Of a stretch of DNA of 64,000 nt, positions 20,001 through 63,700 are shown in pieces. Location: assembly GCA_950295325.1 (NCBI GenBank), contig OX485803.1:46393554-46457553 (forward strand), read 5' to 3'. A program made the position numbers and the translations under genes. The notes below the pieces were generated by a model. The model saw only the letters and a program-made list of their open reading frames with translations. It was not told the DNA's origin and did no database searches. Each line of letters starts with the position of its first letter. Position 1 is the first letter of the stretch. The stretch comes from Polytrichum commune. Its lineage: Eukaryota; Streptophyta; Polytrichopsida; Polytrichales; Polytrichaceae.

Positions 20001-22827
20001 GTATGATGCTGCCTAATAAAGTACACATCTCTTAGTTTGAGTCCCCACTAATCTCACAAAACTTACTGTCTGCTCTAATAGATAAAGTGTGAGCCAAAAG
20101 CCCTCCGCTATAATTGCTGGCTTACCTGATCAAACCTGTGCTGGATGAGGGCTAGCTTGAAAGTATACTCCGTAGAATCAATTTGAATAACCCGATTCTT
20201 GCCATCTCTATCCAAGCAGTAGATTGAATTTCCAGACACTTTTGTGATATATACAGGCACATCAAGAGTTCGAATGATACCACTGTCTCCATTAGGCAAG
20301 CAGTACTTGATGTGGTTAAGAGTGGTGTAGATGAAAACTCCTGACTCATCCCATGCTCCACTCTTCACCCGGATAGTTTCATGAACAGTGCACTTGTGCA
20401 CAAGCTTCTTTGTGGCCACAACTATGGCATGCTTGCTGAGTAGAGCAACCATTTCCATATCACTTGACCATACCACATATTTCACAAAGGGAGTGCTGAC
20501 CTCTCCCAATATGGCTCGTTGCTGCAAGTCAAAGAGAACAACCTTGTCCTCTGATCTACAGAGTAGGTTTCCAGTGCCTGCATAAAAGATTACATCCGTT
20601 GTTGGAAAGGGCAGAACGACTTTCTTGGTCACTTCATTTCGCAGATTCTTGATGAGAACCTGGTTCAGAAAACACATTTGAATATTCAGCTCCTCATGCT
20701 AATTGCAGGTTGCTTTGAGGTAACAAAGACTCAGATATCCAATTCAGATGTGCTCACCAATTGATTGTGAAGCTAAGGAAAGTTAAGGACTGCAAATTGC
20801 GCACCTGGTTTTGGTTCTTGTCAAGGACTGCAAATCTGTTTCGAGCCACAAAGACAGCAGAGGAGCCTAGCCCACGCTTAGCCTCCTGAGCTGTCTCACT
20901 CCTACCAGTACTCTCCTTGGGAACAATGTAAAGCTCATAAGAACCCCCATCAACATCTGAACATAGGAGAACTGCATTCTCTGCAGGATTATAGGACAGT
21001 GTCCTTGGCCCCTGGTTCAGGCCCATAGAACCTGGTCGGCGAATGGAAATAAGAGGATTGTCTCTTGCAGCAGCAAAATCGTATGTTCGCAAGTACCGCT
21101 CTTTAACATAGTAAAGTGTGCCTCCCTGTACAGCACATGCGGGTCTTTCTCTCTCCAATTTGAAGACAATCATCCCACTGTCGTGACCAGCGGCAAGAAG
21201 GTTCATCTCTGGATGAGCAGAGAGGATCCAGAAACGGTCATGCTCTCTTCGAAAGGTCTGGACCCCTGTGCGCTTGGACATATCCCACACTCGGATGCTC
21301 TTGTCCTCAGAGTTTGACACAATGATATCCTGGCGGGCATGGAACATGACGCACGAAACATTGTTGACATGACCTCGGAGAGTATCAACCTCCCATGCCT
21401 TTGTGTCTGCATCATTTGCAATACTCTAGAATAAAGATGGTGGAACAGCCTGATCAATATCCTACAGACATTCTTTAAAGTCATCACAGGAAACCAATTG
21501 TTTCTTTGGTGGCAATCAGGTTGACTACAGACCCCTGACCCAAACATCCTGACTTTCTACAACATGGACAGTGCTTCATCCAGTATTGAAAAATCAAGAG
21601 TCCACAGGTAAGAAGAAATACCATTCATCCTCCACAGCTTCACCTGTCGATCGTCTGCTCCAGAAACGATCAATGGCAATGAGGGATGAAATGATGCCCA
21701 GTTGACACCCCGATCATGACCTTCTAGCACATACTTCACCACAGAATCACCTCCCCCAAATAGGTCAGTGTTCATCTGAGTGAGGCGCAACATATCTTCA
21801 GCAGGAGCAATAGATTTCTTCCTCAATGCACCAATGTCCCAAACCCGAACCGTCTGGTCCAATGATGCAGAAACCACTAAGTCCTCCTTAATATGGAAGG
21901 AGGCACACATCACATAGTGATTATGACCGGTAAGGACTGAAATGCATGTTCGAGACTGCCAGTTCCAGATGCGAATGGTCTGGTCATCACTTGCACTAAC
22001 AATCCATGGACTCTCATGATGAAATTGAACCGTCCGAATGTAATCTAGATGGCCCAGTAGAGTGAAGAGGCAACGCCGCATCTTATAGTTCCACACTTTG
22101 ATCTTGTAATCATCCCCTGCATTGAGGATTATGGAGCAAATTTGCACATAAGATGTCAATGCCCCATATTCATCAAAATGTACCACGCATTCATTATCAA
22201 ATATGAAGTGCATTATTCGCAACCAACTAATACCTATCTGCACAGACACGTATATATACGCCCATTCTTACTCCTTAACCCTAATGCACTAGGATTAAAA
22301 ACCAGAGACAAAAACAAAGCTCCATTTCCCATTTAGTTGAAGGTGTCAAGCTCAAAACTGGCTCAACACTCTATGCTGGATTTTACTCAGAATCACTTGT
22401 AGGCATAGATTGAACGAAACCAGAAACGAAACGCTGTCCTCATGGAATAATACATTAGGCTCATGGACGAGGTCAAAGTCCAATAGATCAAGACATTTGC
22501 AGCTGAGTAGATTTGTCACAAACATCCTAAACGCAGAATGCCAGACAGACAGAGGAGGAAGCTCAAATGTGCATAAATACACTGAGATGAAGGACCAATA
22601 ATACAACATAGTCTCATACCTCCAGAAACAAAAAGGGGCTGCGATTTGTGGAAATGGACTCCACGAACTGGCCCATCGTGCTCATCGAAGCGGTCGATGA
22701 GTGTGCCCATACGGTAGTCCCACAGCTGGATGATACCGCTGTGCAAGCTGGCCAGGATCCATGGCCGCCGTGGGTGGAAGCTCAGCCCCTTCACCCGATT
22801 GCTCTTGGTCTCGAACTTGGTCAGCAT
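17004..22827 (-). CDS. COPA: Coatomer subunit alpha (alpha-COP)
   Basis: This is the large WD-repeat subunit of the COPI coat, which drives retrograde Golgi-to-ER vesicle traffic in the cytosol. Nine exons, all GT-AG and phase-consistent: 22827-22620, 22116-21622, 21407/6-20805, 20659-20126, 19908-19687, 19497-18957, 18691-18235, 17984-17642, 17249-17004. They sum to 1,216 codons (1,215 residues), the usual plant length. The start [18 protein letters not shown] opens the first blade. WD repeats follow ([43 protein letters not shown]), then the second propeller and helical region. An acidic linker precedes the C-terminal COPI_C domain, which has Cys pairs (CPYC, CPVC). No lesion is seen, so it is probably functional. 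Only the transcription start is uncertain. Confidence 0.97.
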
Positions 22828-36092: not shown

Positions 36093-39000
36093 TGGGAACC
36101 ATGTGATGAGATGCACCTTAAAAGCACACTCGAAAATTTTCTCCTCACCCCTACACCATTAGAAACCCAGTGGATGCTACAAGCAAGAAATATTCCATTG
36201 TTTACCCCATAATTATCACTAAAATACCTCCACAAACTAATATTACAGAACATATTTGAACTAAAGCATATAACATGTCCCAATGGAACACACCTAATGA
36301 ATAACGACAAATTTAAAACTTACTACAATCAACCCACAAAAATAGAGAAAATCGCACTAGAATATGCTAGAAAACTATTTTGCGAACCAATATGCCTTAC
36401 CCAATGCACACATCCATGCCCAATACATACAACACCAAACACCCTAAAGAAGGAATATAAAATACTAAATCATAACACACACATAAGACCACAAGAACAC
36501 CACACTCAATTGCCACCTCCACTATCATTAGAACACCCAAAACCACCCCCATACATACTCAAGGACCCAACACACTTCCCGATACAGAGCATAAGAAACG
36601 ACCGCCCATGCGCATACACAGACAAGTACAAAATCACGAGAAAATACACATCTTACCTATGCCAATGGACACTCACAAATGAAACAACTTACCACAAATG
36701 GCTACCCCAAAAAGAGTTGTTTCCCTGGAACAACCAAAATGCCATAAATCATAACATTTTACTACTAACACAATACTACATTCGAAAACAACACCAACAT
36801 TTTACTAACATACTAAACATAAACTTCGACCAAAAACAAATGAGAGATACCAGATATATCCCCCCACCACAAACCATACCCCTATGCCAAATACACATTA
36901 ACGAATGCAACCCAAAAGATGATATCGCATGCACACAATACACTATTCAAACTCAATATGATAATGCACACATCTACGATAACATTGGTCGACATTTGAT
37001 CACCATTCTTGAAACACGACTAAAATGGTTATGGAACCAATACCACTTAGCATTAAATAGACCACACAACCTAGAGCCCCCCACCCAACCATTCGAAACT
37101 GAAGTGGCATGGTTATACCAAAGATATAAATATAAAACTCCCAAAAATGATCCCCTTAAACTTTCGCAATACACACTCCCAAATACCATCCTTGAAAACC
37201 TCATAAACACATTCCAAATAACACACTCATATTTTTCATCACCAGTAACATGCTCCACCACACTCAGACAATACCACTCCCCATTCCCTATAGATGTAGT
37301 ATTTGGATTAGTTGGAAAAACGCTTCATCATAAATGGTAGGGAAATGGTTATGCACACCCACACACAAACACCGAAATTCAACAAGCCCTCCATTGGGCC
37401 CGCCTCGCAGCAAAAAATGACTCAAATTCTATCACAATACTAGTAATGCCAGACGAAAATTGGTATCACAATCCTAATCCTCACAAAGGACCCTTCCCAT
37501 ATTCGCATGTTATAACCCACTTCAAAGTTGATACCATCATCTACGAAGAACCAACAATCCCCCCAGAACTAAAGCTTGAACCTAGAACAAAAAATCGCGC
37601 TATACAAATAGTATGCATACACCATAAGAACACACCCATAGGAATAGAGACCTATATATACCCAACAAATGAAAGATACTGCCAACACACTACGGATCCC
37701 CGAAATGTTTTGCCAAATTGCACCACTAACGCCTCTAGACACCGTAGTGAACCGCAATACAAAATGGACCAAACTCACATACCCACCCCCCCCCCCCCCC
37801 CCGCTCCGACCATCCAAACCCCAACCAACCCATGGAATATCAACCCAGAACAATGCCTACCGCTTAAATACCCACCCCAATTTTGCTACTACACGGACGG
37901 GTCATTCAAACCACCCAACAAACAAACAATGGACAATGGAGACGTGAAAAAATTGGATATGGTATTTACAACCCCTTCAAAAACCTACAAATCGCAAAAA
38001 GATTACCGGGATTACAAAATATTTTACGAGCAGAAATGATGGCCATACACCACACTCTACAACTCCCCACTACAACATACCAAAATGAGCCAGCCCACAT
38101 ATTCACAAATTGTCTAAACATCCTATACCTCCTAAACACCCAACTCAAACACCCCACTAGTCATAACAGTCACCCGAACAAAATAGTTCTAGAAAACATG
38201 ATTAAAATGTTATAATCCCGCACACAAACCACCACACTCCATAAAATAAAGGCCCACGCAAACATAGGGGGAAACGACCAAGCAGATACACTAGCCAAAC
38301 AAGGACGCGAGCTAGACCATAGAGATGCCGCAATCCCATACGAGCATGCACACCCTACACCATGCTACCTACAAAAAGACTTGTGGCATTCCATAAAAGA
38401 AACACCTGACAAGGGCCCCATTAGGCACCTTAGTAAATACATTCTCAAGCATGACAATGAACATAACTTAACAATTATAGCAAATCAAACACACCAATTA
38501 CACAAATGGCTAGAAAATGACGACATAGATAAAATACTATCAAATGACTTTTGGACAAATTCCGCCATCACAGGTAAGCAAAAAACATGTTTAATAAAAT
38601 TCCGAACTGGACAATATATGGGTTACACCCGAAAACAACTCTTCTTTGGCAGAGAAGCCTTTTCATCGAAAACGTGTCTTATCTGCAACTCAACAGATGC
38701 GGAGACATGGCTACATGTCCTACTTAAATGCAAACAACATCACATCCATGCACTAATAACAAAAAGACATAACAAAGCGGTATGGGAAATACGGAAACTC
38801 ATTGTATCAACTCGAATATCAAGACATTATACACTAATGAATGCAGGAACGCATAATGAACTACCCCAAGAAAATATAGTCCCCCCATGGCTACTTCCAT
38901 GTACATGTGATACCCAAAGATGCCATTGCAACGCCATGCTCAAACCCGACATACTATGCATCACAAACCATCCATATAACCCCCCCCCCCTAGAAACCCC

Positions 39001-48500: not shown

Positions 48501-50533
48501 TACCACGGTAAAAACATGACATAATATATTTCTATCATCGTTCCTATACAAACGGATAAACAAAGTTATTAGTCTTTCTGATTTGGTTTTGACCCAAGGT
48601 AATGTGCATAGGTATAGAAGCAACCTATTCGCAAAGGCAGCTTCATTGTACGTATCAATGGAGAGGACCTCCAATCAAGGTGGGTTTACACTAGGCTCCG
48701 GGTTCAAGAAACCTTGAGGGTCCAAATAACCCCCTTTTAATGGACCTAGTTCTTATGGACTATGGATTGAACCCAAGTTTGACAACTAATTTCTTAAACC
48801 AAGAGGACTACTTAGCAATGTGAGGGTGCCAACATTTGGTGGGAAAGTTGTGCCACTTAAGCACCACTTCATTTTTAATCATGCCTTGGAATTGGACCCT
48901 TGTGTAGAACTCTATGGAGTTTTTTGCTCTCAATCAATAGGATCCGTTCATTTTGGAGTTTCTTTGGTCTTGGATTTGACTATAAACCCACCCGTACGGT
49001 TTCTTTTGGTCCAAGAAACTCGGGTTTCAAAACATTGTTGTATTTGGTATCATCTTTCTATTTTACCAATCATATGTATACAATGAAGAATTTATTTTTG
49101 TTGATACAAGTGGGGTATGCATATCAATGCATGTTTTGTATTTGGAACTATTTAAGTCTATATACCATGCACAATCTTTATACCTGGTGTGAGCCCAAAT
49201 AAGGTGCCCACATATGTTTTTCGGCGTTGAAGTGATTAAAACTAGGACTTGGATTTCATATTAATTATCCAAAACATAAAAAGAGTGTTACATTGGAATT
49301 AAAATTAGATTAAGCATTAGGCTCGATTGTTGGTAGTTGGTACAAAAGTGTGGAGCTGGGAGTTTACAAATTAGTTAGTTGGGTCAATAGGGTGTAGGGC
49401 CTAAGGCTTGGTGAGTTGGGTTAAGTGTGGGGATTGGGCATCGTTGGTGTCCGTTTTGGGTAAGGACTGCTGGTATGGATAACTTTTGGAGGTCGGAGTC
49501 CAGGAGAGGCCACGGTGAGCCCTGGCTCTCTCTCTCTCTCTCTGTGCGACAATGCCCTACGGAAGACAGGAGGACGGAAGGGATACGAGACCCGGGAGAA
49601 ATCCAGGGTATGGGAAGAGGATTCACCAAGCAGGGTTCGGAGAAAAAGAGGTGCGGGGAGATGTGACAGAGGCCTGATCGAGTCCCAGGGGACCTCGGGG
49701 AAGAATGGGCATGAGCGGGAAGAGATTCGGTTGGGATTTGAATCCCTTTGGCGGCAGCAGGGTAAATCAACTAGCTCAGTAAGGTGTGAGGTGGGGAGGA
49801 GATCGTGAGGTGCCGGAGGAGAGCTCAGACACTTGCATTGCTGGCGACAGGATAGCTTGACCGTGTCGGCTAACTAGCAACTCAAAAAAGAAGGCCACCT
49901 TTGGAGGCTGGGGTCGCTTTTCGATGCGTTGGGTGCATGACCCGGCTAATCGAAATGTGGGGATTAGAGCAATTCCCATCGAGGGGGCCGGATTCAGGCA
50001 GCTGGCTGGGCATGAATTCATGAATCCAAATTTGAGCTTCCCCTGTGCTGATTAGTGTTCGGGGAGCAATGCAGACATTCCCGCATTCTACTGGGGGACA
50101 GCCTGGGAAGGGTTGATCGGCTATCTGAATTGAGCTGCCGAAGGGGAGCAGACAAAATGGCACAGTATATAGCGACGTTTCACTCCAGGGGAAGGTGGAT
50201 TCGATAGGAAAGGTGGACTGAGGAGGGCTGCTGGGGTAATCCGAAGGCAGGGAGCAGCGAATTCTACATATAGACAGGCGGCAGTTGGAGAGATGAACAC
50301 CGAGGGGTAACCACCAGGGGCCACCTTGGGGAGAAGGATCCAGAGGGGAATCGACCAGGGTTTAAGGGAGGCCCAGGGCAGTTGGGAGACTGGTAGCATT
50401 TAGCTCTCGGAAGACAGGCTGGTAGAGGGTAGGAGGTGTTCAATCAGATGGTGTGAACCTATAGTAGGTTGTGGTGAGAAGGATGGTTAATCCACTTGGT
50501 TCAATCAAGTGTGGCTTTGGCCCAATTCAATTG
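48501..50533. other. Spacer left of the Gypsy element, no gene recognised
   Basis: 48700-49100 is weakly similar to 61180-61450 (blocks like GCACCACTTCA-TTTT and CAATTTTGGAGTTT), suggesting an old repeat. 49390-50400 is purine-rich on the plus strand with a CT run at 49527-49543. Several ORFs of 80-130 codons on both strands there are Ser/Pro/Gly-rich and I do not support them. Confidence 0.4.
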
Positions 50534-51060
50534 TGTCACGTGAGGTGACATCGGGGGCTAAGTCACGTCAATTTAGGAGTAAATGGACTCCACTAGGAGT
50601 CCATGTGTGTTGGGATGAGTAACGGACTCCATTGGGAGTCCTAGTTAGTTGTTCATCCACTCCATGGATGAACTCCACATAGGATTGGGGTTGTATGGAG
50701 AGGAAGGCCTCTTGACTTGCCATTGTTGTGAAGTCAAGTCTTGTGAGTGTGTTTTGAGAGAGAGAGAGAGCTTGTTGTTGCTTTCTCATGGCTATGGTGT
50801 AATAGATTATGAGTAAAGCCTTTGCATTCTTTCTCCACCACTTGCACTCTTGGATTCTCCCTTCGTGGAGTGAGAGATAGCTTGACTTTTGTGTGTGAAT
50901 TTTAGAATTTCTTAAGCTTTGTAAGGAGACATTTTAGTTTCTTAAGCTTGTTGTTGCTTTCTCATGGCTATGGTGTAATAGATTAAGAGTAAAGCCTTTG
51001 CATTCTTTCTCCACCACTTGCACTCTTGGATTCTCCCTTCGTGGAGTGAGAGATAGCTTG
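50534..51060 (+). repeat. 5' LTR (part shared with the 3' copy)
   Basis: It starts TGTCACGTG and contains a G-box CACGTG at 50537-50542 and a second ACGT core in TCACGTCA at about 50563. Four small hairpins occupy the first 140 bp. A 176-bp unit beginning CTTGTTGTTGCTTTC starts at 50771 and again at 50947, so the LTR contains an internal tandem duplication that the 3' copy also has. The true LTR 3' border beyond 51060 is not visible by comparison. Confidence 0.85.
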
Positions 51061-52420
51061 ACTCTTGTGTGTGAATTTTAGAGTTTCTTAAGCTTTGTAA
51101 GGAGACATTTTAGTTTCTTAAGCTTGGAGAGAGAAACCCTCATACTTGACAACAATGTTCAAATTTTTCATTTTTGGTTGTATTTATGAGCTAGAATGGC
51201 CCAGTACTGAGAGCAAATGAGTGATACAAGTGTTTGAAAGCTTAGTTCGTCATTTCTTGCAATCCTCAAGAAGATTTTGAGAGAAATCTTCCCATTTTTC
51301 TTTTGTTGTCTCTTGTATTTTCTTCAAGTGTTGATGGTTGAATCTTGAGATTCCATTTGGTCTCAAGATTCTCAAGTCACATCATTCTTGCTTGCAATTT
51401 GTAAAAGCAAAGTTTAATTTTTTTTTAATTTACAAACAAACACAAACCAAACTTAAAATCCGAATTTTTTATTTTTATTTTTATTTTTTTTTGAGCTCCG
51501 GAGCTCCACGGACACTCTTGGAGCTCTTGGAGCTCCCATTCTGCACCTGGCGGCAGATCCCGGGGCCGGGGCGGGCGTACGCAGGCCGGGCCGGGCCCCC
51601 AGACACCGACCCCCAGGCCAGCTAGGCGGGCGGGCTCCGGCCAGGCCCAGCTGGCTTCCCCTTAAAGGGGGGTTGACAGGTAAGGGGGGTTGACATTCCT
51701 TTTTTTATTTTTTTTATTTTTTTAAGTTAATTAATTACATAATTAGGTTAAGTTAAGTTAATTTAATTAGATTAAGTTGATTAAGTTAATTAAGTTAAGT
51801 TAATTTAATTAATTTAGGCTAATTAAGTTACTTAGATTAAGTTCATTAAGTTAATTAATTTGTTTTTATTTTATTTTATTTTTTAAATAAACCGGATTTT
51901 TTTAAAAAAATTCTTTAAATTTCTTTTTTACTTTCACTTTCAAATTTGGCATTTCATTGTCACAAACTTTGAGGCTCAAATTTGGGGGCATACTAGCTCC
52001 GATTGAAGTGAAATTTGAGCCTATTTTGTGTGAAATTTGCCAAGGAATCCAATGGTGTAATTGGATTTTTGATTGGAAGTCAAAATCATTGCTGAAATTG
52101 CTAATTTCAACAATGATTTTTGTTTTTGGGAGCAAATTAACTCCGATTGGAGTGAAATTTGAGCCTAATTTGTGTGAAATCTTCCTAGGAGTCCATTGGT
52201 GCACTTAGTTTGTTGATTGGAGTTCATAATCACCTTGGAAATGAGCCTTTTCAACGCTGATTTTTCATTTTAATTACCAATCTCAAACCTTTGCACAATT
52301 TTGGAATTCTGGGGGCATAAACACTTGGCATTTGGCAAGGGATTGCCATTTAGATAGCCCGCAACAGGTGCAGGTTGCCATTACCTTGTAGATAGTTGCA
52401 GGTACTCAAGTGATTATTTT

Positions 52421-55400
52421 ATGGTGCAAACTAGGAGCCGATATTATCGATCTCCATCACCAGATTATTTGGAAAACGTGCATACCACAAATCTTGAGCC
52501 AGAGGTAGATACCAACAAGGCTTTTGAGCCTATTTCGGCGTTGGACACTACTAGTAGGCTTCGGATTTGGAGTGTCGGCACGTTCGACGAAATGGAGGAC
52601 GATCGCCACAATTCAGTGCGTGATCGGTTCTCAGGTCGAGCTGGGGGAATTTCCTTGCCCGATTGGAAACTCCGGTTTCGTACCTGGATTAAGGAGAAAC
52701 GCCAAAGGTCTTCCAATTTCAATGATTGGTATGCCTTTGAACTTCTGCCTCAGCATTTGGAGTATGAGGCACTCCAAACTTACGAACGCTGGATAGAGGG
52801 TCATCAGCGACAACTTCGGGAGGTGGAGCAGTATTGGGAGGCCCGGGTTGAACTTATTTCAGCCCTTAAAGATGGGGCGATTGCCACCTTAGCTCCACCT
52901 ACCTTAAAGGAGGAGGATCCACTGGAGGAGTCTAAGGACCAAGAACTGGCATTTGGGCCAATGGTGGCTGGCAGTAGCACGGCTACCCTTTCACGGATGG
53001 CACGTGCTACACAGGCAGCATTGACGGCTGTTGGTCCACCACCTCCGTTTAATCCCCTTGCTGAATTTGTCGCACATTTGGAAGTGGAGTATGGTGGGTT
53101 TCGGCGAGACCAAATGCAGCGCATCCAGGATTTCCGCCGAGAGAAGGATGATACTCCACGGACCATGTATACGCGACTCGCGCGATTTGCTGTGGAGTCG
53201 GGAGGTGTTTTTGCTGAGAGTCAGCTTGTTAAAATCTTTTTGTCTAAGATTGACAAGCGGCTACTTGAGTTGGCATCACCTCGGATTATCCTCGACTACG
53301 AGGGCCGAGCTACGCTTGCACAAGCGTTTGCCGTGGTTGAGAGATGTGATCGGGCTCTTTGCCAACATGATGCCACGGATATGGTATCTTGGATGACAGA
53401 GAGTCCGAAACCAAGAAGAATTGTCACAGCTACTAGTAGTTTAGCTGAGACTCAACCCGTCAAGGAGCAAAAGATTTTGCATTGTTGGGGTTGTGGAGAA
53501 GCTGGTCATTCGAAGAATGATCCCAATTGTCCTAGGAAGAAGAAAACTCAGCCTTTGGGAAAATTAAAACAAAAGATGGAACCAGTAAAGGCAGGGGACA
53601 ATTCTAAGAAGAGACAATTGAAATGTAACCATTGTGGTGGCACTAATCACGATGTGGATCATTGTTTCCAACTTCATCCTGAGATGCGGCCTGCCAGTTA
53701 TGTCACTGGAAAGTCTCCAAGGGAGCAGAGTCTTGAGGCTAAGGTGGCAGAGCTTGAGCAAAAGCTCAAATCTTCTGCATCTTTTGCTCAAATTTCTGAG
53801 CCGCATGCGGGTGGTGGCACCTCGGGGTCGGACATGTATATGTTTGGGGCATCTGGAGAGGTGGTGGCGGCGGCTTCTACTCGCTCACAAACGTTGGCAG
53901 ATGCGGTGGCTTCCACGAGTGGTGGTAGCAACGAGGTGCTACATCCTCGCCATGCCGGACCAGCTGATCAAATTGGTCAAGCACGTTTACCTCTTTCATT
54001 TGGATTGGTAGACACCACTGTTGTTGGGGCTAAAAACCCTGTACCTTTGAAAGATGGGGATTCCATCTCGAAGGATGTTACGCAGGCATTGGCATATAAA
54101 ATTCTCCATATGCCAATTTTCTCGGGTTCGGAGTTTATGGCTTCGGATTTCAAGCTTGCTGCAGTTTTTCATTTAGCTGGGAGAATGTTAGAAGGTAAGG
54201 CGGATTTGCCATCCCTTCAAGTATCCCAAGCTGTGGTTGACGTATCTGTGGCTGAGGAGGTGGAGGACTTAGCCAATTTGCGAGCGAGTCTTGCGGATGC
54301 GGCGATCATTGCTTTTGGTAAGCAAACTGATATTCCTCCAGCATCAATTTCAGCAGTGGATACGTCATTTTCGAATTATGCGTCGGGAGCGGCATATCTT
54401 GCAGACATTTCTGCAAGGCCTGCTCGCGAATGGCATAATTTGCAACCTGGAGTTGTACGGCTGATAAACGACAAATCTTTGTTGGTCGTTTCACGCACGG
54501 ATATGCCCACTATCCGTGCTACACTACTGAGAGTTATGATGGATTCCGGTGCTCAACCGGTTATGATTGGCAAAGGACTTGCTAACAGTCTTGGATTGAC
54601 GCCAGCAAGCTTGGATCCTTGTCCATTCACTATTGTGACTTCAGTAGGGGGCACTGAACGTGCAACAGGTTACACCAAGGCACCTCTACGTTTGATTTTT
54701 CATGTGGGGGTAGGGCCTACTTACACTCATTTGTCAATGAAGTGTGTTGTTACTAATGCTACCAATTATGATATACTTGTTGGTCAGCAAGCTCTTTACC
54801 CACTTGGCTTTGGTTTGGATAATTGGACGGAAGAGGCATGGATTAGACTGGGATGGTCCACTGGAGATGGCAGGAAGGTATTTATTCCCATCACATTTGC
54901 AGCCACTGCTATGACTATGATTGCGGAAGCAATGTTTGGTTGCAGCGGTTCAGTTGCAGATTTGCCTTGTGCTCCAGTTTTATTGGAGGAAACAATGGAC
55001 TACACTTGTAATGCGGCAGAACAACAATTTTTACCATCTTTTCAAATTCCTGCTCGTCATGTCAAAGATCCACCTCCACCATGGCGAACTCCTAAGGAGT
55101 TATCCGACCATTGTCGACACATTGTAAAAGATTTGGATATTGGAGAGGCACCTCCAACTTCACCCTCATTTTCTTTTGCTCAACCCATTCGTTGGCAACC
55201 ATCACCTGAAGGTCTTGTCCTTGTGGAGATCTTTGGAGGCATTGGCACAGGTTTGGCGGCAGTGTTGGAAGCTGGAATTACAGTTTGGCGATATATTCAT
55301 GTGGACAATGGATATGCAGCCAACAGAGCCGTCCGACACCACATCCAACAATTGTTGTTGAGATACCCCGCACAATTGTCAGCCTCTGCCATTTATGGAT

Positions 55401-56248
55401 GTTGTGGTCAACTTCCTCAAGATGTCACTATGATTAGTGATGAGGATTTGAGAAGGTTGGGCCACGTGGATTTGATTATTGCAGGATGGCCTTGTCAAGG
55501 CCATTCGCGGGCAGGAACTGGCCAGGGATTGGATGATCCTAGGTCTAGTTTGTTTGCGGATTTGATGCGATTGACGCAATGGTGGTTTACCCACCAATCA
55601 ACTCCGCCAGGGTACATTTTCGAAAATGTACCATTATTGGGTGATACCCGGCACAAAGTGGTGAAGGATGGTGAGTACATTCACCAAATTCTGGGTACTC
55701 CAACATTTTTGGATGCTGCATCTTTGGGATCCTTTGCTCATCGGCCTCGTTGGTTTTGGACCAACTTGGTAACACCTCGGGTGCTTTCAGCGGCGATTGC
55801 CCGCATTCCCCGCCTTATGGATCGCAAAGTAGATGACATTTTAGATGATCATCGTGTTTCCTTGGCAGTTACCAAGGATGACACCTTGTCATTTGCATTA
55901 ATTAATAAGGTGGGCATTCCAAGAGGTGCACTACCTACTTTTGTGACATATCCACAGTCTTTTGCATTTCGATCTCGTGGACCTGGCATGGTTTGGGATT
56001 CAAAAACCCAAACTTATGAGGAGCCTACGGCAGATGAGCGGGAACGCGCCATGGGTTTTCTTACAGGTACCACGGCTGCTCACGGGCTTCAGGAAGGTCA
56101 GAGACGTTTCCTATTGGGGCAAGCTATGGATCTTAATAACATTGTGTGGATAATTGGAATTTATCTTGCTGCTCAACAACGTATGGATGACCAATTGCTT
56201 ACTCTGAGGGCAGAGAACAATGGAGCCGCAATTCAAGGATCACATTGA
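52421..56248 (+). CDS. Gag-protease-C5 DNA methyltransferase fusion (Gypsy ORF1)
   Basis: This is an uninterrupted 1,275-residue ORF. Residues about 50-330 are Gag-like. Two zinc knuckles follow: CWGCGEAGHSKNDPNC from residue 355 and CNHCGGTNHDVDHC from 402. A short coiled coil lies near 435-455. The retroviral-type aspartic protease has MMDSGAQPVMIG with the catalytic Asp near residue 708. From about 930 to 1260 there is a C5-cytosine methyltransferase. It has motif I FGGIGTG (AdoMet binding), an HVDN acidic position, motif IV GWPCQG with catalytic Cys 1025, motif VI FENV with Glu 1068, motif VIII HRPRW near 1108-1110, then RERAMGF and LLGQAMD as motifs IX/X. All key residues are present, so activity is plausible. 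The Trp in GWPCQG replaces the usual Pro. It would methylate DNA, perhaps nascent cDNA or integrated copies (inference). Confidence 0.92.
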   Translation: MVQTRSRYYRSPSPDYLENVHTTNLEPEVDTNKAFEPISALDTTSRLRIWSVGTFDEMEDDRHNSVRDRFSGRAGGISLPDWKLRFRTWIKEKRQRSSNFNDWYAFELLPQHLEYEALQTYERWIEGHQRQLREVEQYWEARVELISALKDGAIATLAPPTLKEEDPLEESKDQELAFGPMVAGSSTATLSRMARATQAALTAVGPPPPFNPLAEFVAHLEVEYGGFRRDQMQRIQDFRREKDDTPRTMYTRLARFAVESGGVFAESQLVKIFLSKIDKRLLELASPRIILDYEGRATLAQAFAVVERCDRALCQHDATDMVSWMTESPKPRRIVTATSSLAETQPVKEQKILHCWGCGEAGHSKNDPNCPRKKKTQPLGKLKQKMEPVKAGDNSKKRQLKCNHCGGTNHDVDHCFQLHPEMRPASYVTGKSPREQSLEAKVAELEQKLKSSASFAQISEPHAGGGTSGSDMYMFGASGEVVAAASTRSQTLADAVASTSGGSNEVLHPRHAGPADQIGQARLPLSFGLVDTTVVGAKNPVPLKDGDSISKDVTQALAYKILHMPIFSGSEFMASDFKLAAVFHLAGRMLEGKADLPSLQVSQAVVDVSVAEEVEDLANLRASLADAAIIAFGKQTDIPPASISAVDTSFSNYASGAAYLADISARPAREWHNLQPGVVRLINDKSLLVVSRTDMPTIRATLLRVMMDSGAQPVMIGKGLANSLGLTPASLDPCPFTIVTSVGGTERATGYTKAPLRLIFHVGVGPTYTHLSMKCVVTNATNYDILVGQQALYPLGFGLDNWTEEAWIRLGWSTGDGRKVFIPITFAATAMTMIAEAMFGCSGSVADLPCAPVLLEETMDYTCNAAEQQFLPSFQIPARHVKDPPPPWRTPKELSDHCRHIVKDLDIGEAPPTSPSFSFAQPIRWQPSPEGLVLVEIFGGIGTGLAAVLEAGITVWRYIHVDNGYAANRAVRHHIQQLLLRYPAQLSASAIYGCCGQLPQDVTMISDEDLRRLGHVDLIIAGWPCQGHSRAGTGQGLDDPRSSLFADLMRLTQWWFTHQSTPPGYIFENVPLLGDTRHKVVKDGEYIHQILGTPTFLDAASLGSFAHRPRWFWTNLVTPRVLSAAIARIPRLMDRKVDDILDDHRVSLAVTKDDTLSFALINKVGIPRGALPTFVTYPQSFAFRSRGPGMVWDSKTQTYEEPTADERERAMGFLTGTTAAHGLQEGQRRFLLGQAMDLNNIVWIIGIYLAAQQRMDDQLLTLRAENNGAAIQGSH

Positions 56249-59200
56249 GGTCAATGACACCGAGGGATTATTTCCTTTGAAACTTCATGTTGCGGAAGAG
56301 CTTCGAGCCCAACGTGTTTTTTCGGCTTTGGCCCAAGAGTTTGGGAAGTTGGAGGCCCATAAAATGTTTCCACTTCTATTTCTTGGTGATACTTCATATG
56401 TGGGTAGCTATTTAGCTACACAAACTGGTTGTAGTGGAGAGAATACGCATTTGGATTCAAGTGCAGATGATGGGGGCAAAGGTGTTGCCCTCTCCACGGA
56501 CTAGCAATCACAGGCTGTGCTGGCACCAAGTGGCAATCCTTCTATAAAGAAGGAAACCACGGAGTTTGACGATTGGCCAATTGAAGTGGGGCCAAAGCTT
56601 ACTGGTGCCGAAGCACGAAAGGTACAGGCATTTATTCGCTCTTACCGTAATTGTTTTGCCTTTAGTCTTCATGATCTTGAAGGATATAAAGGTAAACATG
56701 TTCGTATTCAACTCGAGGACGACCACCCTATTTTCAGACGGCCATACAGACTTAGTACCTCTGAAAGGTTGGGTGTTCAAACTCGATGTCAAGAGTTATT
56801 GGCAGCGGAATTGATTGAACTCTCCAATGGAGAGTATGCTTGTGCCACGGTTATGCCGTCAAAGAAGGATATCTTTGGCAACTGGACGGAAAAACGGATG
56901 TGTGGTGATTATCGTCCAGTCAACCGCAAGACCAAGTCGGATCGATATCCAATGCCGATGCCGGAGGAGTTGTTTGATGCACTAGGATTTTCTAGAATCT
57001 TCAGCACTTTGGATTTGAGGTCTGGTTATCACCAATTACCTTTGTTGTTGGGTGATCGGGTGAAGACCGCATTTTGGGGAATTGATAAAGATGGCAATGA
57101 TCAATTTTATCATTGGAAATTTCTGCCATTTGGTCTCAAGAATGCACCAGCTGAATTTCAGCGGGTGATGGACCAATTATTGGCTGGTTTGCCGTTTGCT
57201 AGATGTTACATTGATGATGTTATCATCTTTAGTAACAGTCCACAGGATCATGTGAGGCATTTGCAAGCGGTATTTGAACGACTTCAACGGTGGGGACTCC
57301 GTTTACATCATGGGAAATGTAAGTTTTTCCATGATCAATTGCCCTATTTAGGCCACATGATTGTTCCTGGCGGTCTTGGTGTGCAACAGGCGAAGGTGGA
57401 TGCTTTGCACAAAATTCCCGCATCTAGTGATGTACCACGGCTTCGTGTATTTCTAGGATTGGCAAATTATTATAGGAGGTTTGTCAAAAACTTTAGTTTG
57501 ATTGCCAAACCTCTTACCATTCTCACGGGGAAAGACCAACCATGGATTTGGAGTCGGGAACAACAACAGGCATTTGATACATTGAAGTAGAGGCTCGGTT
57601 CAGCGCCAGTGCTTCGACGCCCGGATGTGTCTAGAGCTTTTCAATTGCACACGGATTGGAGTGCAGTGGGATTGGGAGCGGTATTGACACAGAAAGATGA
57701 AAAGGGAAAGGAATATGTGGTGGCTTATGCATCTAGAAGCAATAATAGTGCTGAATCTAATTATTCTTCTTATGAAGGCGAGGCCTTGGCGGCCGTTTGG
57801 GCCATTGCACATTTTCGACCTTATTTGTATGGGCAAAAATTTACTTTGGTGACTGATCATCAGCCTTTAAAATGGCTTATGGAATCAGATAAGCTCACCG
57901 GGAAACTAGCTAGGTGGGCATTGTTACTTCAGGAATATGATTTTGAAGTTGTTCACCGAGCAGGAATTGCCAACTTGGATGCAGACGGATTGTCTCGCAA
58001 TCCAAGTCCTTCAGATGAGGATTTAACTGGAGCCAGGTGGCATGGAGATTGTGATCGTGAGGCAGTGCCGGGTTGGCATGCTGCCACATATCTCACAATG
58101 ATGTCGGGATTGGCTGCTGAGATCCTTGTAGAAGAACAGGATGAGGAGGTTGATAAATCTCTCGTTGTTAGTGATGTGTGGGAAGACCAGGCGGTCTTGC
58201 ACAAACTTCAACACGGGATATTTCCTCTTGGACTATCTGCTATGGAGCGAGATAGAGTTAGTCACCGGATAACAAGATTTCGTTGGGCAAACAGCTTGTT
58301 ATTTCGTGTGTGGCCGAACGGAACGAGACGCATCGTTCCAAGGCCAGATCAAAGAGCTTCTTTGGTGCGGCAAGTGCACGAGGAGCTTGGACATTTTGGA
58401 GTGCGAAGGACGCACTCTATGTTGCGCAACCAATATTGGTGGACTGGTATGTATCAACAGGTTGCCACTTATGTTTCTCGGTGTGAAGTATGTGACCGGG
58501 TCAGGTCAAGTTTTAATACTTTGTCACCTCAACTTCAGCCTTTACCTATTATGGGCTTGGGATATCGTTGGTCTTTGGATTTTGCCGGACCGCTTATTAT
58601 CACTCCACGTGGTTCCAAGTATGTGCTTGTGATGGTGGAGCATTTTAGTAAGTGGATTGAACTCGTAGCTCTTCCCCAAAATTCCTCAGAATTGGCGGCT
58701 ATGGCATTTCTTGATCGAGTTTTGGCACGGTTTGGAGCACCTGCAGAGGTGTTGACGGATCAAGGGAGAGAATTCCTTGGATCTTTCGAGGCTTTGTGTA
58801 CCAAGGCTTTGATTGATCATCGGACAACTTCCAGAGATCACCCTGAGGCAGATGGCTTAGCTAAACGAGTTGTTCAGACGGTTAAGCGCGGTTTGCGGAA
58901 GTATGGATTGCTTCATGGCAACCATCGCGATTGGGACTTGATGTTACTATGGATAGCAATGGGTTATCGTTTCAGCAGGCAAACATCTTTGGCATCCTAT
59001 AGTCCTTACCAACTCTTGTATGGACGGGAACCAATTTTACCTAACTCGGTGCGAGAGAAATTGGCTCCGGTGGTAAACTTGGATGATCCAGATGTTTGGG
59101 CTCAATGTCTTCATAACCGAGCAACGTTCTTCCAAAAGGCCATGCCTATGGCTATGGAGAACTTAAATATTGCTCAACATCGTGATACATTACGGTATGC

Positions 59201-59648
59201 CCGAATCCGCAGTGGAGCTTATCGACCTCAGGTTCGTAGATTTTCCAAGGGGGATTATATTTACTTGCAACGGGAGGCGCCTACGACATCGGATGTCAAG
59301 GCTGGACGCACGATTTTGCGGGTAAAAGATGTCTTGCCAAGTGGTATATTATTGCTTGAAGGCAAGAATGGACGGGAATGTCGTGAGCATTCAAAGAATT
59401 GTGCTCCATGTCACCTTCCCATCGATGGCTCTGTGCATCCCGAGTTGGCGGTTGTACCACAGGGTCTGCCTTGTTATGTTTGTGGAGAGAAGAAAGGAGC
59501 TGCAACAATGTTATTGTGCGACCAATGTCAACATGGATGGCACATGGCATGTTTGACACCTCCCCTTTTGAGTCTTCCTTTTGGCAATTGGGTTTGTCCT
59601 CGTTGTCGGAAAGCCTCTCATTCCGTGGCCGTTAATGGTCATGATTGA
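56220..59648 (+). CDS. Gypsy Pol: RT, RNase H, integrase with C-terminal PHD finger
   Basis: One frame, +1 relative to ORF1 and overlapping it by 29 bp, runs from the ATG at 56220 with two in-frame TAG codons at 56502 and 57588. RT shows MCGDYRPVN, the LPFGLKNAPAEFQRVM block and the catalytic YIDD at about 57207. RNase H shows HTDWSAVGLGAVL and TDHQPLKWL. Integrase has an HHCC zinc finger (HEELGHFG...CEVC) and a DDE core: WSLDFAGP, LTDQGREF, DHPEADGLAKRVVQ. The last 60 residues are a C4HC3 PHD finger (CYVCGEKK...CDQCQHGWHMAC...CPRC, 59472-59606). The TAG at 56502 is followed by CAATCA, a readthrough-type context. The TAG at 57588 lies between RT and RNase H, where a Gln is usual, and looks like a mutation. 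How the frame change from ORF1 is made is unknown. Confidence 0.9.
56502..56510 (+). promoter_or_regulatory. Candidate UAG readthrough signal (TAG CAA TCA)
   Basis: The stop codon at 56502-56504 is followed by CAATCA, which fits the CARYYA context known to allow readthrough in several plant RNA viruses. The reading frame is open for about 93 codons before it and for hundreds after it. It may instead be a chance match at a mutated codon. Confidence 0.45.
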
Positions 59649-59972
59649 GGATTTTGTGAATGTTTACCACATGTTTTAGTAGTGAAGTTGTTATTTAGTT
59701 GGTTGAAATTTTATGGGATTAAAAATTACATTGAAAGAGTTATCCAAGAATTCAACATAAATTGTTGAAGGCGATTAAGGATGGGGCTCAAATTGCACCC
59801 AGCCTACAGTTTTTGGATTACTTTCTCAATCATGAATTTAATTCCTTAGATTACCACTACCCAATTGAATATGTATAGATGTAGCAACAACTTCATCATG
59901 TTCAACAACTCTACCGATGAGTGTGTTTGTTCCTAGCCGATTGGAGGGGCTCCTTATCTGCTAGTGGGGGCA
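59649..59972 (+). other. Gypsy 3' untranslated region
   Basis: This non-coding sequence lies between the integrase/PHD stop and the rearranged LTR junction. No ORF is supported. Confidence 0.6.
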
Positions 59973-60079
59973 CTTGAAGAGGTGGTTGTTTAGCATTTTA
60001 GTTTGCTATTTTATTTTGCTAATTGATGTTGACACCGACACTCGATCTGTTGTGTTTAACGATCTTAGTTTACACGACA
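59973..60079 (+). repeat. 107-bp direct repeat flanking the 3' LTR fragment, left copy
   Basis: This begins CTTGAAGAGGTGGTTG and ends TTTACACGACA. It matches 60603-60709 with one mismatch noticed (GACACC against GACGCC). The LTR fragment lies between the two copies. It is absent from the 5' LTR flank, so it is internal element sequence that has been duplicated. Confidence 0.85.
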
Positions 60080-60081
60080 GC

Positions 60082-60606
60082 TGTCACGTGAGGTGACATC
60101 GGGGGCTAAGTCACGTCAATTTAGGAGTAAATAGACTCCACTAGGAGTCCATGTATGTTGGGATGAGTAACGGACTCCATTGGGAGTCCTAGTTAGTTGT
60201 TCATCCACTCCATGGATGAACTCCACATAGGATTGGGGTTGTATGGAGAGGAAGGCCTCTTAACTTGCCATTGTTGTCAAGTCAAGTCTTGTGAATGTGT
60301 TTTGAGAGAGAGAGAGCTTGTTGTTGCTTTCTCATGGCTATGGTGTAATAGATTATGAGTAAAGCCTTTACATTCTTTCTCCATCACTTGCACTCTTGGA
60401 TTCTCCCTTCGTGGAGTGAGAGATAGCTTGACTCTTGTGTGTGAATTTTAGAGTTTCTTAAGCTTTGTAAGGAGACATTTTAGTTTCTTAAGCTTGTTGT
60501 TGCTTTCTCATGGCTATGGTGTAATAGATTATGAGTAAAGCCTTTGCATTCTTTCTCCACCACTTGTACTCTTGGATTCTCCCTTCGTGGAGTGAGAGAT
60601 AGCTTG
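60082..60606 (+). repeat. 3' LTR fragment
   Basis: It corresponds to 50534-51060 of the 5' LTR, including the first 176-bp unit and part of the second, and then stops abruptly at AGCTTG. The break falls in a short shared CTTG with the following 107-bp repeat. Confidence 0.85.
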
Positions 60607-60709
60607 AAGAGGTGGTTGTTTAGCATTTTAGTTTGCTATTTTATTTTGCTAATTGATGTTGACGCCGACACTCGATCTGTTGTGTTTAACGATCTTAGTT
60701 TACACGACA
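60603..60709 (+). repeat. 107-bp direct repeat flanking the 3' LTR fragment, right copy
   Basis: This is the second copy of 59973-60079. It continues into sequence (ATTGGGTTTC...) that may be the original continuation of the element's 3' region. Confidence 0.85.
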
Positions 60710-63700
60710 ATTGGGTTTCTTGTAATAGGATCGGGATTTAATCCCAGTGTATTGAGCATTCAAAAAGCCGGGGTGCTTGACAAGGCCCACAAGCCCGTAA
60801 GCATTTTTAATGCTTGTTACATTGGTTCTTTTGAATAAAGTGTATAAGGGACAGTTTATTGTGAATCAGTGGTATTGGGCTCCAAGGTTGAATTGGAATC
60901 AGGTAATTGTATGTGAGTCTTTGCCTTTCACCCGGACTACGATGCATAAGGGTGGAGGGTTAGGGCTCACACCTGGGTAGAATTATCATAACATCAATAT
61001 GGCATTAGGATTGTATTGATCAAAGTAAATAGTCATGTATATGAAGATTCTTTCATCTTATGATACCAACCAAGTATCAAGTAATTGATTGTTATTACAC
61101 TTTTGATGCCAATTGAACCGGCTCTTTGATGTTGGATATTGATTGTATTGTGTATTGATACAATGCATTCTCCTATATAATAGTCTAACATTGATCCAAA
61201 ACACTTTTCGATGAACGTTATTGTTTTTGGACTGCATATTGTACCCAATCTTGAAGATTGGTTTTTCAAACTAGGAGGAGTTTTTTCTTGAATTGGGATG
61301 AACAAGCTTTGGCGAGAAAGTGTTGCCACAATGTTGCATATTGGCACCACTTCAATTTTGAAGACTTCAAAATCCCAGACCTCTTTGGGTCCTAAATTTT
61401 GCTCTTAACCAACAAGATTATTCAATTTTGGAGTTTTGGACCTTGTCAATTTTATATTTTGGAAAAATTGTTATGCCTACCTCAAAGAGCTAGTCAAAAT
61501 GAATGCTCCTAAAAATCACGATAACATTGTCTAATGTGGTCATGGAGGACTCCAAATTTGTTCACAAAGAACAACATGGACCTTGGCCTAGGGGTAAACC
61601 CAACTCGGACCACAACATAGTTCTCGATCTTAGTGTAAACCACCCTCCAAGAAGACTATCGACTTCTTCTTCATAAAATATGAGAAGACATGGAAGGTAT
61701 CAACATATTGAGGACAGCTAGAAGCCAAAAAAAGTCAAGACCATCCCCAATATGAGAAGATATCAAAATTTACTAAGTTTATAACCAAATTTCTTAAAGG
61801 GAGGTCATTCAAATTTCCACTCGATTGATTCACATGTATGTTCACAAAGAACATCAAGTATGAAGCCTCGTGCTTTTATGCCATTCTATTGCAGTTGGTA
61901 AAACAAAAATCGTGGATTTGATTTTTCTTCTAACTAAGTTAGTTTACAGTGCACATTTCCGTGTGGAGGGGGTTCCAAAATTTTGTTAGCTTTGTAGTGG
62001 TTTTTGATGGCCCATGGAAGTGTGTTTAAAGACACGCTTTCATGTATTGGTTGTCTATGGAAAGAAAACTAGCCTTCACCAATGTTGACAAGCATTGGAG
62101 GAATTCTTAACATGTTTTGGGGTGAACAATTCCATGTGGAGCAAGTGAGTCAACAAATACGAGAGTAGGTGTAATAATTTAAAAGTTAGAAACTACCCAT
62201 CATCCACCTTATCCATTTTGAATGTTGCATGAATTGAGTGGATTGATCATCTTTTATATTTTGGTTTCTAGAAAGAAAAAAGCATGTTAAACACAAAAAA
62301 AACATCTCATCAAAGGGTTAAACATCGATCATAAAAATCAATCAATGTAAAAATATGGCAACATCAATTCCATGCCAACATGATTTTTCCAATCAAGTTT
62401 TTATGTTCAAATTAAGTTGACTTCCAATTTTGAAACTAAGAGTGAGTCCATTGCACTTCTCCAAATTTTAACCTCTTCTTCAGGTAATTATGTTGGCCCA
62501 TCGATCTTTTTTCTTTGAGCAAAATCTAAACACACTTTGGTGTGCAATGCTTTTTCTTTCTTTCTTTTATCCCTTGGAGATAAAGGCATGATAAATAAAC
62601 GAATGTGTGGCTAGTGGGACATGCCATTGGTGTCATGATTGGCTCTTGCGAGTGAGTGGGGGTAGGTTGGGCACACATAGAGGGGCCCACATGCATCATT
62701 ATAGTGCTACTATGTGGACATGCAAGGCAATTACATGACACAATACCAACTAAAAGCAAAGCCTATGCTACACATGAGAATGCAATGGTGCAAATATACG
62801 TCCAAGGGCCCCATGAAATCACATAAGTTGGCTATAAGCAAATTTATTAAGACCATTTTGTGGCATTGTGAAAAAATCATACATATGTTGGAGATTCTTA
62901 CAAATCACCTGAGTGGAAGTTGTTGTTGGTGCAACACTACTGAATTCAAATGTTGAAACTACAAGTCCATCAATTGAATGCCTGTCAAACTCCACAAATA
63001 AATTGTGCAAAACAAACACAATAAACCCACTCCACTACTATAGTAAAGTAACATTGATTGAAACATTGTGGAAAAATCATGAAACAAACGTCATTGTTCC
63101 CACTCCAACTCAAACCTACAAAACAAACACAAAACCACCTTTTGATGCCCAAACCAACAAGTATGTAAAAGGTCAAAAAAACCTAAAAATCAAATAAAAC
63201 ACATGCATATGCATAATTTAATGTCACAAATTAGTAGATGGCTCATTTGTGCCATACATTGTGCACAACATGCAACTTGATCTCTCCAATAACTCCAAAA
63301 ACTAGCCAATACATCATCTTCCTCAACCAAATATAAGGGCAACAATGGAGAGGACTAGCGTGAGAGCACACATAGACACAAGGCAACCAACACATAGGTA
63401 CATATTGTCTTTTTAAAAGAAATAATTTGTACACATGTTAGCTTACTCTTCCCTTGTACTATTTCTACACTTTTCCCATTTCTCACACATTTGATATCTT
63501 CCTTTTCTAGAGCACAATGCACACTACAAAATGGTTTTTTGGTTGCTTCCAAAAAAAAGGATGTTGGAGGAGATTTTTGGAATGTTTTACTAGGATGATG
63601 GAGCATATTTGAGTTAGGAGTCCATAAACCACATCATAAAGTGCCTTTATATTGCACTTTATGACACTTTCAATCAAAGATGGCAACTTGATAAGGAAAG

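Follow-up and report, generated by a model that had tools for sequence, protein, structure and literature searches.

Retrotransposons carrying DNA methyltransferases (DNMTs) are the subject of one paper found in the open-access PMC literature (de Mendoza 2018, PMC5890265), the available sections of which report independent DNMT captures by retrotransposons in dinoflagellates and one charophyte. The charophyte element, KnitGypsy-Dnmt3 of Klebsormidium nitens, combines Gypsy domains, a DNMT3 and DIRS-like repeats, and Ka/Ks below 0.2 between its copies indicates purifying selection; the copies are methylated at CHG and CHH, which is presented as one case of the general pattern for silent TEs (PMC5890265). 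SymbioDIRS-Dnmt3 and SymbioLINE-Dnmt are likewise DNMT-bearing retrotransposons, although they are dinoflagellate DIRS or LINE elements rather than Gypsy elements; the SymbioDIRS DNMT has CG activity in yeast (PMC5890265). According to the accessible part of PMC12344493, streptophytes and dinoflagellates have "LTR Copia and DIRS" elements with DNMT3 members. The accessible parts of PMC6453930, PMC12633428 and PMC5784723 contain nothing on such elements, and no paper on DNMT-bearing elements in bryophytes or chlorophytes was found in the open-access PMC literature.

In this work, the window, a stretch of 64,000 nucleotides from Polytrichum commune, was found to contain a Gypsy-type retrotransposon with a DNMT3-like C5 cytosine methyltransferase (MTase) fused to Gag and protease (Table 1). 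We predict that this MTase methylates new cDNA of the element itself before or during integration, a reading whose chances we consider even. The kind of element is already known: the original prediction had called the concept not new, and KnitGypsy-Dnmt3 bears this out. We set our element beside KnitGypsy-Dnmt3 by domains, repeats and published description. As far as the available sections of PMC5890265 go, the two share Gypsy domains, an un-rearranged DNMT3-related MTase with key residues kept, purifying selection, and DIRS-like repeats, those of K. nitens being taken from a figure legend. They differ in the place of the MTase, which in K. nitens lies within the Pol polyprotein ORF and here together with Gag and protease upstream of a conserved leaky UAG, and in their hosts, a charophyte only in the one case and, for relatives of the present element, bryophytes and chlorophytes in the other (PMC5890265). 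At its C-terminus the present Pol also carries a PHD finger, a term absent from the main text of PMC5890265.

Table 1. Features of the retrotransposon, in positions of the window
Feature	Positions	Strand	Details
Left 4-bp target-site duplication	50530..50533	+	ATTG
Whole retrotransposon	50534..60709	+	10,176 bp; termini TGTC...GACA; bounded by repeat ends and target duplication
Repeat A1, as matched to A2	50534..51061	+	97.5% to A2
ORF1 of window copy (Gag - protease - MTase)	52421..56248	+	1275 aa
Gag zinc knuckle	53624..53665	+	C-X2-C-X4-H-X4-C
Aspartic protease region	54488..54820	+	DSGA at 54542-54553; sub-threshold Pfam PF13650/PF13975
DNMT3-like C5 cytosine methyltransferase domain	55193..56206	+	motifs I (FGGIGTG, 55232-55252), IV (WPCQ, 55487-55498; catalytic Cys codon 55493-55495), VI (ENV, 55622-55630), VIII (HRPR, 55739-55750), X (GQAMDLN, 56117-56137)
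TMV-type leaky stop motif, ORF1/Pol junction	56502..56510	+	TAG-CAA-TCA
Pol, reverse transcriptase	56505..57587	+	YIDD 57207-57218; PF00078 E 1.7e-31
In-frame stop within Pol of window copy	57588..57590	+	
Pol, RNase H - integrase (H2C2, rve) - PHD	57591..59648	+	PF17917, PF17921, PF00665
PHD finger, C-terminus of Pol	59472..59606	+	PF00628 E 9.6e-10
Repeat B1	59973..60079	+	99.1% to B2
GC dinucleotide between B1 and A2	60080..60081	+	
Repeat A2	60082..60607	+	
Repeat B2	60603..60709	+	CTTGA shared with A2 at junction
Right 4-bp target-site duplication	60710..60713	+	ATTG

The original prediction of a Gypsy element encoding its own C5 MTase held: ORF1 matches PF00145 (DNA_methylase; E 2e-11, with 44.4 bits where the cut-off is 22), and RT, RNase H and integrase follow downstream in the Gypsy order. 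As claimed, the MTase motifs share an ORF with a zinc-knuckle Gag and a protease, the Pfam match of the latter falling below its cut-off (18 bits vs 24.3). The domain, at about 55193-56206, extends slightly beyond the 55210-56160 first assigned to it. The motif order is the canonical I-IV-VI-VIII-X, these being the numbers that we take the conserved segments to represent. Comparisons of sequence and of structure both place DNMT3A/DNMT3B first for the domain (top matches among solved sequences, E 1e-7; 25% identity in the structural alignment), although the element MTase is fused to Gag and protease and no Pfam match to PWWP or ADD was found in the element ORFs. A DRM identity was rejected, since DRM has motifs VI-X before motif I, as in the rearranged DRM-like gene of the host itself (L106), whereas the element order is un-rearranged. 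The copy count called for by the original prediction gave 101 scored places in the host genome out of 610 candidates, window included, for about 100 or more in all; chance motifs are excluded because the element scored at so many places.

The repeats are not the plain LTRs that had been expected. In the window copy and in other copies they are split direct repeats in the order A1...B1-GC-A2-B2; an ordinary LTR retrotransposon with two full-length terminal LTRs was rejected, as the window copy has no B at its 5' end but one B before and another after A2 at its 3' end. The first repeat matches (D1-D5) had the appearance of LTRs before B was placed only 3', on either side of A2. B1-GC-A2-B2 was found at 21 of 27 3' ends and a single B at two, the fetched stretch holding no repeat at the other four; the GC between B1 and A2 is present in all 21 copies showing B1-A2-B2. 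At three of 14 further 5' ends (L037, L039 and L085), A is absent from the fetched stretch. A1 of the window copy contains a 176-bp tandem duplication, and in copies 6, 10 and 16 the A repeat extends as far as a CTTGA equivalent to 51145-51149. Target duplications of 4 bp are exact in 10 of the 11 copies with both ends read; in the remaining one, L081, three of the four bases match. Several copies have near-identical repeats, and the claim that the family was recently active stands. Split direct repeats of the form A1-B1-A2-B2 together with a putative MT domain are also found in DIRS/PAT elements, which differ in using a tyrosine recombinase (PMC4157794, as far as available), whereas the present element has an rve integrase and 4-bp target duplications; no recombinase family was among the Pfam matches of its three ORFs.

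The junction between ORF1 and Pol carries a motif of the tobamovirus type (type I), for which the consensus is UAG-CAR-YYA (PMC5382211, in the part available). The UAG is followed by CARYYA and an open frame beyond it, in both families of the element, although the motif lies here at a Gag-PR-MTase/Pol junction and readthrough is predicted from the motif. It is present at all 30 loci compared and, with every locus read in element orientation, in the MTase frame at 29 of them. The MTase is probably made at the Gag level, as the leaky stop separates Gag-PR-MTase from the in-frame Pol. The single exception is the window copy, which looks damaged: its ORF1 departs from the frame of the other copies just before ending early at 56248, ahead of the conserved TAG, and its Pol is broken by the stop at 57588. 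A programmed frameshift from ORF1 to Pol was thus rejected, and the out-of-frame arrangement is a defect of this copy, since TAG and Pol are in the MTase frame at the 29 other loci. The catalytic motifs of the MTase are intact.

Relatives were found in bryophytes and chlorophytes, the carriers including Marchantia polymorpha and Sphagnum and the algae Haematococcus and Monoraphidium; judged from sequence, the element type is widespread in green plants. Among the matches of the homology search, no K. nitens protein is named. The catalytic Cys, the general loss of which would have spoken against the original prediction, is kept in 189 of 191 MTase domains, the exceptions being P0129 and P0130, and a profile built from 58 relatives matches Ty3 Gag-Pol. 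The proposal that an MTase before Pol is a new architecture was partly right, with the MTase before RT in 16 of 195 fetched proteins and after it in 128. The MTase domain tracks RT in trees and in distances (126 elements having both domains), and one architecture is kept together both in the RT trees (76 of 87 RT domains, then 127 of 145 with at least 230 model positions) and in the MTase tree (121 of 132 domains with at least 270 model positions, host DNMT3 outgroups absent), where the label "ORF1-type" denotes proteins up to P0040 in which RT was not found and the MTase starts after residue 300. A Closterium protein, P0131, with a Copia-type RT upstream of zinc-knuckle and MTase pieces in the same gene model, is read as a merged or nested gene model, and 21 loci from a scan of viral contigs, with matches mostly covering part of the MTase domain, are taken for phage C5 MTases. 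The spread suggests an old, broad lineage of DNMT-bearing Gypsy elements. Somewhat short of an even chance, in our estimate, is a single capture of a DNMT3-type MTase by an integrase-bearing, split-direct-repeat Gypsy ancestor predating the chlorophyte/streptophyte split; the MTase would have stayed with RT ever since, changing place once between the gap that separates RT from integrase and the Gag side of the leaky stop.

From these sequence features we infer MTase activity and self-methylation. The leaky stop would yield much Gag-PR-MTase and little Gag-PR-MTase-Pol, and the enzyme may be packaged at the Gag level as a consequence. In the particle, it would meet double-stranded cDNA and deposit 5mC, so that a new insertion would arrive premarked, at a lower cost to the host, and could be kept quiet by host maintenance enzymes until reactivated. 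A further prediction is that the PHD finger, downstream of the integrase, reads histone H3 and steers integration. Such a supply of enzyme at the Gag level would not be general, as the MTase lies downstream of RT in most of the fetched relatives. Against self-methylation stands a yeast assay of KnitGypsy-Dnmt3, the nearest relative to have been tested: methylation was not detectable, a result that its authors call inconclusive (available sections of PMC5890265).

An unlikely alternative target is host chromatin: Gag-PR-MTase would enter the nucleus and methylate host loci or raise bulk methylation, shifting silencing in the element's favour. The DNMT3-like fold, the many copies that could supply enzyme and the coincidence of DNMT-bearing elements with an unusual methylome in Symbiodinium (PMC5890265, in part) fit such a role, but K. 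nitens has the element type together with a land-plant-like methylome (same source), and the MTase, being fused to Gag and protease, is tied to the particle. Still less probable is a service to the split-direct-repeat replication cycle, in which the enzyme would, for example, mark circular or nicked cDNA or protect it; DIRS elements may use their putative MT domain, a different one, in this way. The A1-B1-A2-B2 repeats here, the DIRS-like repeats of KnitGypsy-Dnmt3 (PMC5890265) and the presence of both features, split repeats and a putative MT domain, in PAT-type DIRS elements are consistent with it, whereas Ngaro elements, which also have split direct repeats, lack an MT domain (PMC4157794, both as far as available), and the algal relatives are represented here by proteins, not repeats. 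Zinc-knuckle Gags bind RNA, and the MTase shares its ORF with one, so DNMT2-like methylation of element RNA or a tRNA might be considered; with DNMT3A/3B ranked first by both sequence and structure, we regard it as very improbable.

Equally improbable, and already disfavoured, is that the MTase is a passenger, a captured host gene without selection. Singleton variants are neutral in the MTase (N ratio 1.06), and the domain has stops at 11 of 30 loci; RT singletons, however, are neutral too (0.97), as post-insertion decay predicts, the neutral yardstick being noisy (linker ratio 2.1, from six synonymous changes). Deep constraint, seen in the retained Cys and in a between-family dN of 0.27-0.31 against saturated dS, and the co-tracking of MTase and RT in trees likewise argue against a passenger. 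Judged from the sequences, the MTase domain is under constraint, contrary to the neutral evolution that would have refuted the original prediction: purifying selection is seen between families and mostly also within them (pairs below 93% identity), and is weaker among the closest copies, where pairwise dN/dS is about 0.54 for the MTase and 0.55 for RT. Among variants common to at least three copies, the 30 copies being picked by MTase similarity, non-synonymous changes are depleted, the MTase result being borderline (p 0.0499). A comparison of the family members L100 and L101 gives 0.77. No clear methylation signature was seen in the context of C-to-T changes, the CG bias being small (CG, CHG and CHH: 0.250, 0.246 and 0.233 for singletons; 0.147, 0.168 and 0.098 for shared variants). 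The close-copy dN/dS, the MTase stops, the borderline p value, the small CG bias and the L100/L101 value were counted against the best explanation, self-methylation of new cDNA.

Beyond the original prediction, the analysis brought out the split direct repeats, the leaky UAG, the spread across bryophytes and chlorophytes and the PHD finger. The combination of an integrase with split repeats poses a separate replication question, and the conserved leaky stop predicts the amount of enzyme relative to Pol. Whereas the available sections of PMC5890265 describe independent captures, a single element type is seen here in chlorophytes as well as bryophytes, and its catalytic residues are hardly ever lost; if the single ancient capture is true, this would be the oldest known mobile epigenetic-writer system, spanning green algae and bryophytes. 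Since Marchantia polymorpha and Sphagnum carry relatives, why a transposon would methylate DNA becomes a testable question in tractable plants.

The original prediction of a Gypsy retrotransposon encoding its own cytosine DNA methyltransferase was borne out by a Pfam check, in which the window element matched PF00145 DNA_methylase (E 2e-11). The motifs of its methyltransferase (MTase) follow the canonical order, the closest solved sequences are DNMT3A and DNMT3B, and the enzyme class is strongly indicated. The element also contains RVT_1 (1.7e-31), RNase H, the integrase zinc-binding and core domains, a PHD finger (9.6e-10) and a sub-threshold match to an aspartyl protease. The window copy itself looks inactive: ORF1 shifts frame shortly before it ends, and Pol is interrupted by a stop at 57588. 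Four ORFs outside the element are included in the table; DUF4283, found in one of them, is presumably tied to retroelements.

Features of the window and copies with exact target duplications (paired L-numbers, 5' and 3' ends of one copy)
Feature	Window position	Remark
ORF1	52421-56248	1275 aa (ORF list)
Pol ORFs	56517-57590 and 57609-59648	single shared frame (ORF list)
Repeat A1	50534-51061	97.5% alike to A2
Repeat A2	60082-60607	97.5% alike to A1
Repeat B1	59973-60079	99.1% alike to B2
Repeat B2	60603-60709	99.1% alike to B1
176-bp tandem duplication	50750-51225	within A of the window copy
DUF4283 ORF	4740-6041 (-)	likely remnant of another retroelement
GAG-pre-integrase ORF	13398-14183 (-)	likely remnant of another retroelement
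WD40-repeat ORF	21557-22249 (-)	likely host gene exon
PCIF1_WW ORF	36297-37340 (+)	likely host gene exon
Exact 4-bp target duplications		window, L038/L032, L040/L034, L041/L035, L042/L036, L084/L064, L086/L068, L088/L075, L089/L079, L091/L083

The sequence CTCTCCACGGAC-TAG-CAATCA was found in all 30 loci L001-L030, and its TAG lies in the MTase frame in 29 of them, the sole exception being the window copy (L001). In 17 of these 29 loci the TAG is the sole stop from the MTase region onward, and in 26 at least 200 codons are open past the TAG in the same frame. A second MTase-bearing family in this genome (L092, L094, L095, L096, L098 and L102), with an MTase about 62% identical to that of the window family (59-64% where compared), carries TAG-CAATTA in frame in L094, L095, L096 and L098, with different flanks and with 229, 91, 229 and 55 codons open past the stop, respectively; L092 and L102 have TAG-CAGTTA, out of frame with their MTase start. 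All three variants fit the type I readthrough motif of tobamoviruses, UAG-CARYYA (PMC5382211). An expression layout with a potentially leaky UAG is strongly indicated by these sequences, readthrough there is predicted and, since this stop stands between MTase and Pol, the MTase is on the side that would be overproduced.

The MTase query against the host genome scored 101 places among 610 candidates, including the window; the other 100 are 86-97% identical to the window MTase, and a tally of the resulting table gives 44 of the 101 as free of stops within the match. With PF00145 as the query, 123 out of 353 candidates were scored, taking in second-family places and a DRM-like exon; L106 (C2:4700600-4706600) is a DRM-like host gene with rearranged motif order. 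Insertions of the family look recent, since within three copies A1 and A2 are 99.8, 99.8 and 98.6% identical and B1 and B2 differ at 2, 2 and 1 of 107 compared positions.

The element is arranged as A1 - ORFs - B1 - GC - A2 - B2, with no B after A1 in the window copy, and this order of split direct repeats matches that of PAT-type elements as defined in PMC4157794. Among 27 inspected 3' ends (window + 6 + 20), 21 show the B1-GC-A2-B2 order, the GC always separating B1 from A2, two have a single terminal B (L035, L075), and four show no repeat within the fetched stretch (L071, L072, L073, L077). Of 14 further 5' ends, A was found in 11 and was absent from the fetched stretch in three. A copies from a subset of the other loci match the 176-bp duplicated stretch as one unit. 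Of the 11 copies read at both ends, 10 have perfect 4-bp target duplications, and in L090/L081 three of four bases match. The single-B copies L041/L035 and L088/L075 have exact duplications; they may have arisen by recombination between B1 and B2 or from another form of cDNA. CTTGA forms the A2-B2 junction, the end of A1 and the start of B1; the window copy uses a different CTTGA of A for this junction, and in L080 B2 begins further in. Strand transfer or priming could occur at this microhomology, and B1-GC-A2 could serve as a template restoring both element ends.

Selection was assessed in the 30 loci closest in MTase, a choice that introduces bias, with pairwise dN/dS as summed dN over summed dS: MTase 0.54, RT 0.55 and linker 0.80. 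Singletons gave N ratios near neutral for MTase (1.06) and RT (0.97), and a noisy 2.1 for the linker; variants in at least three copies gave 0.46, 0.28 and 0.96 (Fisher p versus singletons 0.0499, 0.0004 and 0.38). Between the two families, MTase dN was 0.27-0.31 and dS above 2.3 or saturated. Pairwise values were 0.23-0.31 for L100 and L101 against four window-family members, 0.77 between these two loci, and 0.33-0.42 among the second-family pairs listed. In the set of 196 MTase domains, 189 of the 191 that have a residue at the catalytic position carry the Cys, and motif VI Glu is present in 191/193 and motif VIII Arg in 191/193 and 190/192; Glu replaces the Pro before this Cys in about half (92/192). 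Constraint on the MTase is strongly indicated. The Cys is absent in P0129 and P0130 (Pleodorina starrii and one other source), possibly an inactive offshoot.

Three protein searches yielded 195 relatives, with named sources including Marchantia polymorpha, Calypogeia fissa, Sphagnum fallax, Closterium sp., Haematococcus lacustris, Monoraphidium neglectum, Pleodorina starrii and Cymbomonas tetramitiformis. RT precedes MTase in 128 (P0038 and 127 others), mostly with MTase before integrase and in 112 as RT-MTase-integrase-PHD; MTase precedes RT in 16, and 51 have no RT within the same protein. P0131 (Closterium sp. NIES-53), in which a Copia-type RT is followed by fragments of a zinc knuckle, a protease-like region and an MTase, is probably either a nested insertion or a merged gene model, and P0068, an algal-type element inside a MAG labelled Minisyncoccia bacterium, is likely contamination.

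The 10 MTase-before-RT rows, including the window, together make up one side of a branch in the 127-row RT tree (SH-aLRT 98), as do four in the 76-row RT tree (support 99). In the 121-row MTase tree, a 31-row set (support 99) unites all 25 rows labelled ORF1-type, all five MTase-before-RT rows, the window among them, and one unassigned row. For the 126 elements compared, distances in the MTase are correlated with those in RT (rho 0.417, a value reached in 0 of 999 permutations). These groupings and the correlation support one relocation of the MTase and its joint inheritance with RT. Because the trees are unrooted, sampled by MTase and free of a host DNMT3 outgroup, they leave the capture undated and are also compatible with movement of MTase elements by transfer between hosts.

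As for activity, substrate and benefit, the inference we favour is that Gag-PR-MTase carried in the particle would methylate the element's own new cDNA, a proposal to which we give an even chance. In the 2018 paper (PMC5890265), SymbioDIRS enzymes gave CG methylation and the KnitGypsy enzyme gave none, a result its authors call inconclusive. A figure legend there (de Mendoza et al.) describes KnitGypsy-Dnmt3, from Klebsormidium nitens, as combining DIRS-element repeats with Gypsy domains. The DNMT-bearing Gypsy retrotransposon is a type already known; what this case adds is the leaky-stop layout, the copy-by-copy repeat anatomy, a PHD finger and an occurrence that extends to bryophytes and chlorophytes.
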